Shown here: positions 28,948 to 39,153 of the stretch, in pieces
How the letters are laid out: each line of letters starts with the position of its first letter
Position numbering within the stretch: position 1 is the stretch's first letter
From: Pectobacterium polaris
GTDB lineage: Bacteria > Pseudomonadota > Gammaproteobacteria > Enterobacterales > Enterobacteriaceae
NCBI RefSeq assembly: GCF_002307355.1
Contig: NZ_CP017481.1
Coordinates: forward strand, 3,844,001 to 3,908,000
Length of the DNA: 64,000 nucleotides
Direction of reading: 5' to 3'
Translations under genes and position numbers: made by a program
Notes under the pieces: generated by a model
Told to the model about the DNA's origin: nothing
What the model saw: only the letters and a program-made list of their open reading frames with translations
The model's database searches: none

Positions 28948-29891
28948 ATGTCAAAGCAGGACGAACAGCGATTATTGGTCAAGATCGCTACGCTCTATTA
29001 TAGCGAAGGGATGAAACAAGCAGAAATTGCCGCCTCACTCCATTTGTCACAGTCTTTTGTCTCCCGCGCGATCACGCGCTGTGTTAAAGAAGGTGTGGTC
29101 AAAATCAGCGTAATTCAACCCCGAACATGTTCATGGGGCTGGAAGCGGCGATTCAGAAGCGCTACGGCATCGATCAGGCTATCGTGGTGGACGTCGCCGA
29201 TAACGCCACGCTGGCGCAAATCAAGCAGGCGATTGGCTCTGCGGCCGCGCACTATGTCCAAACCAGTATCCGCTCTGACGATCTGGTCGGTATCTCGTCC
29301 TGGAGCAGCACGCTGCGGGCGATGGTGGATAGCCTGCATCCGCAAAGCGTCAAGGCGCAGGGTGTCATCCAACTGTTAGGTGGCGTCGGGCCGAACGGCA
29401 ACGTGCAGGCGACAATCCTGACGCAAACCTTAGCCAATCAGCTCAGTTGCCCCGCTTACCTTTTGCCCGCGCAGAGCATCGAACGCTCGGTGGAAGATCG
29501 CGCCCGTTTGGTGACCAGCGATGAGGTTTCCAGCGTAGTTGATAAATTCAGCGAAGTGAGTCTGGCGCTGGTCGGTATTGGCGTGCTAGAGCCATCGCAA
29601 CTGCTGAAAAACTCCGGTAACTACTATCACGAAGCGATGCTGCAACAGTTAGCCGAACGCGGTGCCGTGGGCGATTTATGCCTGCATTACTACAACGCGG
29701 AAGGTGAACCGGTGTTGCAGGACGATGAAGATCCAGTGATTGGTATGGCGCTGCCGCAGCTGCGTCAGTGTCCACGCGTGGTGGCGTTAGCGGGCGGTGT
29801 CGAGAAAAGTGCCGCGATTCGCGGAGCATTAACCGGGCACTACGTTGATGTGTTGATTACCGATCGATTAACCGCTGAGACGTTGATCTAA
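28948..29891 (+). pseudogene. SorC/DeoR-type sugar-responsive regulator, frameshifted
   Basis: The start at 28948 has AAGGGG seven bases upstream. The first frame encodes a clean helix-turn-helix (MSKQDEQRLLVKIATLYYSEGMKQAEIAASLHLSQSFVSRAIT) up to ISVIQP. The sugar-binding domain then continues in another frame from PNMFMGLEAAIQKRYGIDQAIVV to the stop at 29891, with family motifs such as VQLLGGVGPNG-like and VGISSWSSTLRAMVD. The switch falls at a CCCC run at 29119-29122; adding one C restores IQPPNMFMGLE. It is thus a one-base loss, either real or an error in the sequence. SorC regulators sense a sugar phosphate; its position beside the apiose cluster makes it the natural regulator of that cluster. 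Confidence 0.85.
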
Positions 29892-29925
29892 ACACTCATC
29901 ACCCAGCGGTTAGCAAATAATAGTC

Positions 29926-29966
29926 ACGTCAGGCGCGGAATGATTCCCCTGCTCCGTGCCTGACGT
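29926..29966 (-). terminator. Terminator of the apt-aps catabolic operon
   Basis: Read on the minus strand, a 15-bp stem with one G-U pair (ACGTCAGGC... / ...GCCTGACGT outer arms) is followed by GACTATTATTTGC. It lies 12 nt after the apsI stop. Confidence 0.65.
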
Positions 29967-29978
29967 AGCGTGACGTGA

Positions 29979-30977
29979 TTACTCGTCAACGTTAATGGAT
30001 GACAGCAGCGCATCCTGCACAATCCGCTGCGCCTGTAACGGATTTTGTGCTTCCTGCGCCGCCTGAAGCGCCGGGATATCCAGCTTATCCAGCGCGCGAT
30101 AGATGTGTTTCAGGAAACGAATCGACAACTGCGCCGCCTCAACGTGGTTCTCACGGAACGGGAACTGATCGAGCTGCCAGACGCCCTGCCAGTTGTTGAT
30201 TTTCAGCACGTAGAAGAATTCGAAGATCTCGGTCATATGCACGGTGCCGACCACCAGATCGTCATCCCAGCCGCGCAGGTTATCGTTCACATCCATGCCG
30301 AACAGACGACCGCGATCGATAATCAACTGAGCAGAATCGGCCGGTGATTCGCCGCCATACAGCGCATGCCCGAAGTCCAGCAGCACGCCCACGTTATCCA
30401 GCCCGATATCTTCAATACCCAGCAGCGTTCGCGCGGCAGAATCCCAGGTCATTTTCACACGCGGTTCACGCGGTTTGTATTCGATAGCAAATTTCACATC
30501 GGGGTTAGCCCCCGCCAGATCGCGCATGCCATCAACCGCCAGCTTCCACAGGTTTTTATGGCTGACCTGGAACGGATAATCCCAGCCATCCTGACCCGGC
30601 CAGACTTTGACGTAATTCGCGCCGAGTTCACGCACAATGCCCGCAGATTCGTGCATTAATTCAAACGCCGCCGCTCGGGCCGCGGGATCGGGGTTGGTAA
30701 AGGCACCACGCGACCATTTTTGCAGATAAATTTCCGGCGTGATACCAATCGCCTTCAGCCCCGCATCTTTCAGTGCATCTTTCACTTCGCTGAGCGTCAC
30801 GCCCGGCGTGAAGGGATAAGGCAAGTCGACATAGGAAAGTTCGCCGACCTCTTTCGCCGCTTTGATCTGATCGATCGTGCTCAATGCCGGGCCGTAGCCG
30901 TCTACGGCATAGCGGTCGATATAGTTCGCAAAATGCCACAAACCGGCACCAAATTCAGGGTAGTTATACGTTGCCAT
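29979..30977 (-). CDS. apsI: Sugar isomerase, probable D-apiose isomerase
   Basis: A 332-residue xylose-isomerase-like TIM barrel ([29 protein letters not shown]). Metal-ligand stretches are visible: [15 protein letters not shown] (Glu), [20 protein letters not shown] (Asp, His) and [19 protein letters not shown] (Asp pair). The start at 30977 has GAGGTGA before it; a GTG at 30986 overlaps that ribosome site. Beside an FGGY kinase, a two-subunit transketolase and a ribose-type ABC transporter, it fits the D-apiose pathway in which ApsI turns D-apiose into D-apulose. The apiose substrate is inferred from the gene set, which I recall being characterised in soft-rot bacteria; rhamnose- or other pentose-like sugars are alternatives. 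Confidence 0.78.
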
Positions 30978-31043
30978 AAAAGTCACCTCATTGATTTCTG
31001 ATGGTATTGAGCTGCTTGTCTTTTCTTTCGTATCGGATAGGTT

Positions 31044-37189: not shown

Positions 37190-37821
37190 CACTGCGCCCC
37201 TCCGCTGCTCACTTCAGTCAGGTTTAACGTCATCGGCACCGCTTCGCTGATGCCCTGTTTGGTCACCACCAATGCCGCCAGTACGTTAACGGACTTGCCC
37301 TGCACACCTGCATCCAGCGCCGGCAATGACGCAAGCGCTTTGTTATTCAGCGCACGAGCCAGTTGGGCAAACTGAACCTGATTTTTGAAGTCATCAAAGC
37401 GAATAAATCCAGCCGCATCGCGAATGGCATTGCCTTTGACGATAGGCCCTAATTGAAGCGTGACGGCGTCACCTTGCACATCAAGCGTCAATTTTCCTTC
37501 GCGACTTTCCCGGTCAATTCCGCTGACCGTGCCCTGAAGCCTTGCGTAGACGGCTTTACGCCCTGAATCCTCCAGCTCGGCCTGCGTTTTCTTCACATCA
37601 TCCCAGGACAGCGCCTGCTGCTGCGCAGCTGGAAGCAGCGTTGGCTGCCACAGCGCTGTCGCGATGTTCTCTGGCGTCATGGAGCTATAGCCCGGCGTAG
37701 CCGTGGGGTCGACCGGAATGATCGGTTTACCGTTTTCATCCAGATCGACCACCGTACAGGCCGACAGCAGCAAGGCACAGAGCCCAATCCAACTGGCGCG
37801 GTATCGTTCATCGAACAGCAT
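37189..37821 (-). CDS. DUF2291 lipoprotein of the sugar transporter operon
   Basis: A 210-residue protein with a signal peptide and lipobox LSAC (cysteine near residue 22). The body carries DDVKKTQAELEDSGRKAVYARLQGTVSGIDRESREGKLTLDVQG. DUF2291 genes are found repeatedly beside RbsABC-type transporters, but their role is not known; an outer- or inner-membrane-anchored helper for sugar capture is a reasonable guess. It lies between the binding protein and ATPase genes, with tight coupling to the latter. Confidence 0.82.
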   Translation of the reverse strand: MLFDERYRASWIGLCALLLSACTVVDLDENGKPIIPVDPTATPGYSSMTPENIATALWQPTLLPAAQQQALSWDDVKKTQAELEDSGRKAVYARLQGTVSGIDRESREGKLTLDVQGDAVTLQLGPIVKGNAIRDAAGFIRFDDFKNQVQFAQLARALNNKALASLPALDAGVQGKSVNVLAALVVTKQGISEAVPMTLNLTEVSSGGAQ

Positions 37822-37837
37822 AACGACTCCTTTATCA

Positions 37838-37857
37838 GCAGGAGCTGACGCTCCTGC
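37838..37857 (-). other. Intercistronic hairpin after the sugar-binding protein gene
   Basis: A perfect 8-bp stem (GCAGGAGC / GCTCCTGC) with a 4-base loop lies 8 nt after the binding-protein stop, without a T run. It probably stabilises that mRNA segment, raising binding protein over the membrane subunits. Confidence 0.55.
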
Positions 37858-37865
37858 CGCCTCGA

Positions 37866-38807
37866 TTACGGTTTCAACGCAAAGGTGTTGAGTTTGGTCG
37901 CATTAGATTCGTCGATCAGAATGCAGTCCATCAGCTGTTTTTCTTCGTGCTGTGCCTTGCCGTTCTTCAGGTAGTAATCCGCCTGTTCGACTGCCATCTG
38001 CGCCTGCTGCCAGCCGGGTTGCAGCACCGTGGCCTTGATGTTGCTTTTATTGATGATGGAATCACGCACGTAGTCGCTGCCGTCAAAACCCACCACAATC
38101 ACGTCGTGACGCCCCGCCGCTTTCAGCGCGGCTTCCGCCCCTAGCGCCATGGTGTCATTGCCGGAAATCACGCCGGTGATACCTGGGTTTGCCTGCAAGA
38201 TGGCTTCCATGCGAGTAAAGGCTTCCGTCTGGCTCCAGTTCGCCGTTTGTCTGGCGACTCGCTTCATGTCGCTATATTGGTCGATCACATCGTGGTAGCC
38301 CTGCGAACGGACGTGCGCATTGGTGTCTGACTCACGGCCAATCAGCTCGACGTATTTGCCCTTCTGCCCCATCAGCTCGACGAATTTCTCCGCACCGAGC
38401 TGCGCGCCCTGATAGTTATTGGAAACGATCTGCGCCACGGCCACGCCGGTTTCATTGATTTCACGGTCGATCAGGAAAGCGGGAATACCGGCAGCTTTCG
38501 CTTTTTTCAACGGGCCAATGGTGGCATCGGCCCCTGCATTATCCAGAATGATGGCTTTCGCCTTGCGGGCAATGGCGGTTTCAATCAGTTGGTTTTGTTT
38601 GCTGACATCATCGTCATGCGACGCCACCAGCGTGGTGTAGCCCAGTTCGATGGCTTTGGTTCTGGCACCTTCGGCTTCGGCTTTAAAGAATGGGTTGTCG
38701 TGCGAAGGGGTAATTATGGCGATCAACCCGTTATCTGCGGCGAACGCACCGGCAGAGAAGGAAAACATGATAGCCAGCAGGGAGGATTTCAGACGGTAAG
38801 GTTTCAT
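37866..38807 (-). CDS. Periplasmic sugar-binding protein of the apiose-type transporter
   Basis: A 313-residue RbsB-like binding protein. A signal peptide ([23 protein letters not shown]) is followed by [29 protein letters not shown], the hinge and ligand parts [33 protein letters not shown] and [38 protein letters not shown]. The start at 38807 has CAGGAG before it. It is the first gene of the transporter unit (binding protein, DUF2291, ATPase, permease). Two perfect operator palindromes lie 14 nt upstream. Apiose binding is inferred from the enzyme genes. Confidence 0.86.
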
Positions 38808-39153
38808 TGTTATTCTCCTGTTTGAATATATATTCAATATTGAATTAACATTCAAATGAAGTTTTACAACCAACCGAAAAATTGTCCAACAGCAAAAACA
38901 GGAATAGCGAAGCAGCTCACAAATTGTTTACATTTTGCGCGAGGCGATAGTTGTAAGAGTCGTGAAGAAACAGCGACGGGAGAGATAAAAAATTTCCGGG
39001 AGAAATTTTTAACGTTGCGTCAGCAACGGCCCGCAGGGTGACGGACAAGGAGGTTCGTCATAAAAATGCGGATGACGAATGCCATCCGCAGATTACGTGC
39101 TACTGGTGATTAACTATGGAGTACGACCTACAACAGGAACAACAACTCAAGCG
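38808..39153. promoter_or_regulatory. Promoter region of the apiose-type transporter operon
   Basis: A 346-base gap between the binding-protein start and the pgpB stop. It holds the two operator boxes at 38822-38855. AGCGA-N6-TCACA at 38906-38921 keeps one good half of a CRP site, which would fit catabolite control. The rest shows nothing I recognise. Confidence 0.55.
38822..38855 (-). promoter_or_regulatory. Paired operators TTGAAT-N4-ATTCAA upstream of the sugar-binding protein gene
   Basis: Two perfect 16-bp inverted repeats (38822-38837 and 38840-38855) start 18 bp apart. The same pair, slightly degenerate, precedes aptA at 34351-34384. The nearest one is 14 nt from the start codon, so a bound protein would block transcription or translation start. 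Confidence 0.8.

Follow-up and report, generated by a model that had tools for sequence, protein, structure and literature searches.

A probable D-apiose gene cluster of Pectobacterium polaris and a proposed variation in the first step of its regulon across Enterobacterales

The window analysed here is a stretch of 64,000 nucleotides (positions 3,844,001 to 3,908,000 of contig NZ_CP017481.1) from the 4.83-Mb single-contig genome of the soft-rot plant bacterium Pectobacterium polaris. It contains a cluster of genes for the predicted uptake and catabolism of the branched plant sugar D-apiose. The best explanation of the data is, with good confidence, that the cluster represents a known D-apiose regulon, the first catabolic step of which looks modular across Enterobacterales. 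The cluster of the window is itself an already known system, and the new part is the forms that the regulon takes in relatives. The apiose genes of Enterobacterales probably belong to one regulon marked by pairs of sites with the core GAATATATATTC, in which the enzyme of the first step has been swapped repeatedly among the D-apiose isomerase ApsI, a protein named f8, and a pair of oxidoreductases. It is proposed that f8 is a second D-apiose isomerase unrelated to ApsI, on the basis of its position, its exchange with apsI, the operator, and its fold.

Results and discussion

Organization of the apiose cluster

The eight genes named in the initial annotation were all found by domain searches, and are encoded on the minus strand from position 38807 to 29979. 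The periplasmic sugar-binding protein (37866..38807; PF13407), the tandem ATPase with two ABC_tran stretches (35636..37192), and the permease (34537..35652; PF02653) together constitute a ribose-type (CUT2) ATP-binding cassette (ABC) transporter, through which apiose would enter the cell. The transporter genes include that of a DUF2291 lipoprotein (37189..37821; PF10054), and each of these components was recognized by its Pfam domain. The catabolic steps are taken from the published route. ApsI, which has a xylose-isomerase-like triosephosphate isomerase barrel (29979..30986; PF01261) and belongs to the family of apiose isomerases, would convert apiose to apulose. The kinase ApsK/AplK of the FGGY family (31078..32586; PF00370 and PF02782), the gene of which is linked to those of the transketolase, would produce apulose 4-phosphate. 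The transketolase AptAB would then yield central intermediates; it is split into two adjacent genes, which encode the N-terminal subunit AptA that binds thiamine pyrophosphate (33508..34338; PF00456) and the C-terminal subunit AptB (32571..33515; PF02779 and PF02780).

ApsI is near-identical to the protein of PDB entry 3KTC, the source of which is presumably P. atrosepticum, and the source name D-apiose isomerase is given to two proteins closely related to ApsI (86% identity). The best sequence matches of the binding protein in the PDB are 5ibq and 4ry0. The latter is RHE_PF00037 of Rhizobium etli, with 74% identity; 5ibq is taken here to be RHE_PF00037 with apiose, although the names and titles seen do not give the ligand. 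The kinase was also considered as a glycerol kinase (GlpK), but its scores missed both cut-offs (467.3 bits versus 590.35, and 470.2 versus 498), and a separate glycerol-kinase-like gene in the same genome encodes a protein 39% identical to it.

The arrangement of the cluster is conserved. Among the loci kept from a search for ApsI across genomes, the best 80 of 332, the eight genes are present in the same order and at the same site in all seven Pectobacterium loci and in one from Brenneria; the pgpB side is truncated or extends beyond the contig end in two loci (L011 and L014). Because order and site are kept in this way, an arrangement by chance is ruled out. Among the eight clusters compared, the closest to that of the window come from P. 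versatile and P. brasiliense, with about 93–96% DNA identity. The kinase is full-length in 16 of 25 genomes of the genus, including that of the window, is present as a broken piece in G021, and has no close match in eight. The cluster seems to be decaying in parts of the genus, judging from the broken kinase of G021 and from genome G004, which has kept the regulator without a close kinase.

Proposed operator pairs and the regulator

The genes of the cluster overlap or are separated by gaps of at most about 100 bp, with the exception of the 198 bp between the permease gene and aptA, which contain a second promoter with operator-like sites. Each of the two promoters of the cluster has two imperfect palindromes, the starts of which are 18 bp apart. 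At the transporter promoter, the proposed operator pair (38822..38855) is formed by 38822-38837 and 38840-38855, with an exact core at 38824-38835. The pair at the aptA promoter (34351..34384) is formed by 34351-34366 and 34369-34384, and its core at 34371-34382 contains one mismatch. Within the 64 kb, the core with at most one mismatch is found only at these two promoters, compared with 0.08 expected occurrences. A scan for consensus promoters was uninformative, with two found against six expected. Directly upstream of the promoter of the binding-protein gene there is an approximately 80-bp sequence (38985-39066) that is repeated at many places in the genome, with copies 75–95% alike at those listed; it is presumably ERIC-like.

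A regulator of the SorC/DeoR type would act at the GAATATATATTC-type pairs, which are positioned 13–48 bp upstream of the start codons of the binding-protein gene (sbp) and aptA. In the window, the divergent gene of this sugar-responsive regulator (28948..29891, plus strand) is broken, which was absent from the initial annotation of the interval. Its DNA-binding and sugar-binding parts lie in two different frames (28948-29379 and 29127-29891), and the sugar-binding part belongs to PF04198. A match was found in 17 other genomes of the genus, and in 16 of these the C-terminal part lies in one open frame of 353–405 residues; the corresponding frame has 267 residues in the window and 259 in G019. 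The gene of the window differs in length by one base from all 17 relatives, and the copy in G019 has a second gap. The data are compatible with either a genuine mutation or an error of sequencing. The NCBIfam model nearest to the regulator is that of the repressor DeoR, with a score below the cut-off. If the regulator is a repressor, the frameshift would probably render expression of the operon constitutive in this strain.

The core is shared by the apiose genes of relatives. The 145 loci examined (2.73 Mb, with some loci overlapping) contain 187 exact cores, of which 160 were assigned to apiose genes. Of the 27 others, 16 precede, judging by their position, a binding-protein gene with its start read too far upstream.

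Proposed exchange of the first-step enzyme

An even sampling of the family (392 genomes) includes 81 that encode AptA; the subsequent searches were carried out in 80 genomes besides that of the window, with G000 left out. ApsI is encoded in 12 of the 80 genomes and the second oxidoreductase of the Escherichia coli type, a short-chain dehydrogenase/reductase (SDR2), in 34; four genomes have both and 38 have neither. The E. coli-type oxidoreductases were thus rejected as the sole substitute for ApsI. The clusters of the 38 genomes lacking both enzymes were therefore examined, and contain a recurrent protein of about 472 residues, f8. It is encoded in 46 of the 80 genomes, including 37 of the 38 without ApsI or SDR2 and none of the 12 with ApsI. 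Of the 22 genomes without either isomerase, 21 have SDR2, and the remaining one (G733) has the first oxidoreductase (87% identity) beside AptA. A sample of 394 genomes from the whole order gave 17 with AptA; ApsI is present in five and f8 in ten genomes, all of which encode AptA, and neither isomerase was found in the 377 genomes without AptA. The order samples were taken to be the same 394 genomes because of their equal size and the equal handles in the rows shown. Whole genomes were searched for f8 only in the set of 80 and in the sample from the order.

In two loci (L168 and L174), f8 is found exactly in the place of ApsI, between the kinase and the regulator at the pgpB-lapB site. The exchange was also followed on a tree of concatenated AptA and AptB from 108 clusters. 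This was one quick tree without bootstrap, with one label per cluster and any stops set to X; it omits L145, with its AptA match in two pieces, and L026, L040, and L234, the contigs of which are already represented by L231, L160, and L014. The first-step label needs ten changes on the tree (f8 nine, apsI eight, SDR two), and the starred, well-supported branches force three changes for f8, three for apsI, and two for SDR. The placement of apsI in a single clade is rejected (approximately unbiased test, p-AU 1e-37). The genome G518 has two apt clusters (L207 and L208), one with SDR2 and the other with f8.

Several observations weigh against a simple exchange of first-step enzymes. The separation of f8 and apsI among the 80 genomes has a Fisher p of 9e-6, which ignores the relatedness of the genomes. 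Contrasts between apsI and f8 across starred branches, in clusters without SDR, are opposite in three of three cases, and for all clusters there are five independent pairs, about three opposite and two without difference; both numbers are too few for significance. Strict exclusivity of all the first steps was not found, since 13 of the 34 SDR2-bearing genomes encode an isomerase as well (f8 in nine and ApsI in four). AptA is not encoded within 15 kb of eight of the 34 SDR2 genes, which for G768 is probably the result of a contig break. Because of this co-occurrence and distance, the oxidoreductases may serve a further function too. No operator accompanies the lone f8 of G152, and f8-type proteins may already have been treated in Carter 2018.

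Proposed identity of f8

The f8 protein has a Fucose_iso_C domain, and its predicted structure matches the L-fucose/L-arabinose isomerase fold over nearly its whole length. It was rejected as the sulfoquinovose isomerase SftI, with a score of 118.7 bits versus a cut-off of 700. No sequence relatives of f8 were found in the PDB at an E-value of 0.001, and among the 120 entries listed, none bears the name apiose isomerase; Buttiauxella agrestis is one of the sources listed.

It is rather unlikely that f8 is not an apiose isomerase and that its clusters serve another sugar, the catabolism of which would likewise yield apulose 4-phosphate or a comparable phosphorylated ketose. Relatives of f8 with 55–58% identity are present beyond Enterobacterales, in groups such as Bryobacterales and Anaerolineae, and other sugars may be their substrates. 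Furthermore, most f8 clusters have no apiosidase-like gene in the stretch fetched, which also counts against apiose as their substrate; only L172 has a clear one. However, this locus pairs f8 with a gene of the apiosidase family PF13204, beside which there is an exact core. The f8 clusters have kept AptAB, the operator core, and the window-type binding protein, which is 74–85% identical in 37 of 43 clusters, those with a near-complete match. L168 and L174 occupy the site of the ApsI clusters, f8 and apsI are never found together in the 80 genomes, and their labels switch repeatedly on the AptAB tree. These features argue for f8 as the second D-apiose isomerase proposed above.

Free-standing apsI genes

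The placement of apsI varies: the gene may be part of the cluster, follow transporter genes, or stand by itself under a proposed operator of its own. Genes encoding ApsI with 83–96% identity to that of the window are separate from the apt genes in Pantoea, Erwinia, Winslowiella, Klebsiella, Cedecea, and others. All 20 free-standing apsI genes have an exact core at most 300 bp upstream, where 0.014 would be expected per 300 bp. An exact core is present in the same 300-bp interval of none of ten linked apsI genes and neither of two located behind transporter genes; the apsI of G509, which is behind transporter genes, also lacks a core site. The operator motif was identified in the very loci that then served for counting the orphan apsI genes, and the core counts at sbp, aptA, and the kinase gene of other clusters provide a more independent check.

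AptA was searched for in 22 genomes, 19 of which have a free-standing apsI, two have it behind transporter genes (L018 and L020), and one has it linked (L040). All 22 encode AptA with 80–86% identity, which is split into two pieces in one genome. The 21 apt loci retrieved for the unlinked apsI genes contain AptA, AptB, the kinase, and the regulator in every case and the transporter in 19; none of them contains apsI. It is very unlikely that the free-standing apsI genes are relics or parts of another pathway, with the upstream palindrome bound by a different regulator. The neighbours of the lone apsI genes differ between genomes, as might be expected of relics; nevertheless, the proteins have retained high identity, AptA is encoded in every genome searched, and the exact core upstream of them is otherwise nearly confined to apiose genes. 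The free-standing genes are more readily explained as members of the apiose regulon.

In Samsonia erythrinae (L017), apsI is the sole gene of the cluster found at the pgpB-lapB site, and stands behind what looks like a transporter promoter with two sites (upstream of 10001). An apt cluster of the E. coli type with the oxidoreductase pair is located elsewhere in this organism (L138).

Apiosidase-type neighbours

Apiosidase-type genes are located in or beside apt or apsI clusters in L085, L088, L139, L141, and L172, with weaker cases in L062 and L160. Among the proteins scanned, the apiosidase domain PF13204 was found in the first five of these loci; at an E-value of 1e-5 it was not found in L062 and L160, which contain only the flanking DUF5060/DUF5605 domains. 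In L139, L141, L160, and L172, the apiosidase-type gene adjoins a permease of the major facilitator superfamily (MFS) type and an operator core. Six of the 27 exact cores not assigned to apiose genes are at such MFS_2-type permeases adjoining an apiosidase-type gene (L040/L160, which are from one genome, L139, L141, and L172).

The absence of apsI from a cluster does not have to imply that the first step is lacking, as the gene may be located elsewhere under the same operator, or replaced by an unrelated isomerase or by oxidoreductases. The comparison makes apiose clusters without apsI testable enzyme by enzyme, and the operator can serve as a simple signature in sequence searches for further regulon members, including apiosidases and permeases.

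Comparison with known systems

According to PMC13001218, an apiose cluster of P. carotovorum WPP14 was described by Carter 2018, and this strain grows on D-apiose. The cluster of the window shares with it the genus, the gene set, and the route; the only difference found is the frameshifted regulator of the window. For site, order, and identity, P. carotovorum DSM 30168 (L012) was used for the comparison, standing in for WPP14. The proteins of the two clusters are 99% identical for ApsI, AptB, AptA, the permease, and the binding protein, 98% for the ATPase, 97% for the kinase, and 91% for the lipoprotein. The initial annotation had assigned the gene set to the isomerase-kinase-transketolase route for D-apiose, which agrees with the set printed for the genus in PMC13001218; it had correctly presented the route as established knowledge and apiose as an inferred substrate, and apiose as the substrate is now supported by the 97–99% identity of the enzymes to those of DSM 30168 and by the published growth of WPP14. 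Least likely of all is that the cluster serves another pentose, such as ribose or a ketopentose, with apiose a side substrate at most: the transporter and binding protein are of ribose type, and the isomerase and kinase best match models of xylose or rhamnose isomerase and glycerol kinase, all below cut-offs, but the published cluster and growth, the enzyme identities, and the apiosidase domains beside apsI/apt genes in Caulobacter and Sphingomonas (L085 and L088) argue against it. Judged by its close relatives, the cluster is supported as a set for D-apiose uptake and catabolism.

The proposed isomerase f8, which is absent from the window, shares its C-terminal domain with the L-fucose/L-arabinose isomerase family (PF02952), and the predicted fold extends over nearly its whole length. 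It differs from the solved members of the family in sequence, with 11–15% identity, and in its proposed substrate, apiose.

For the first step in E. coli, PMC13001218 proposes two oxidoreductases, and does not settle how E. coli ST131 and ST14 dispense with apsI. The ST131/STc14 cluster, compared through that of E. coli 4/1-1 (L137), has no apsI and instead contains two SDR oxidoreductases. Its transporter and kinase are only about 45–52% identical to those of the window. By contrast, AptAB, the FGGY kinase, the DUF2291 lipoprotein, and the ABC transporter are shared by the two clusters, which also have the family of the regulator and the operator core in common.

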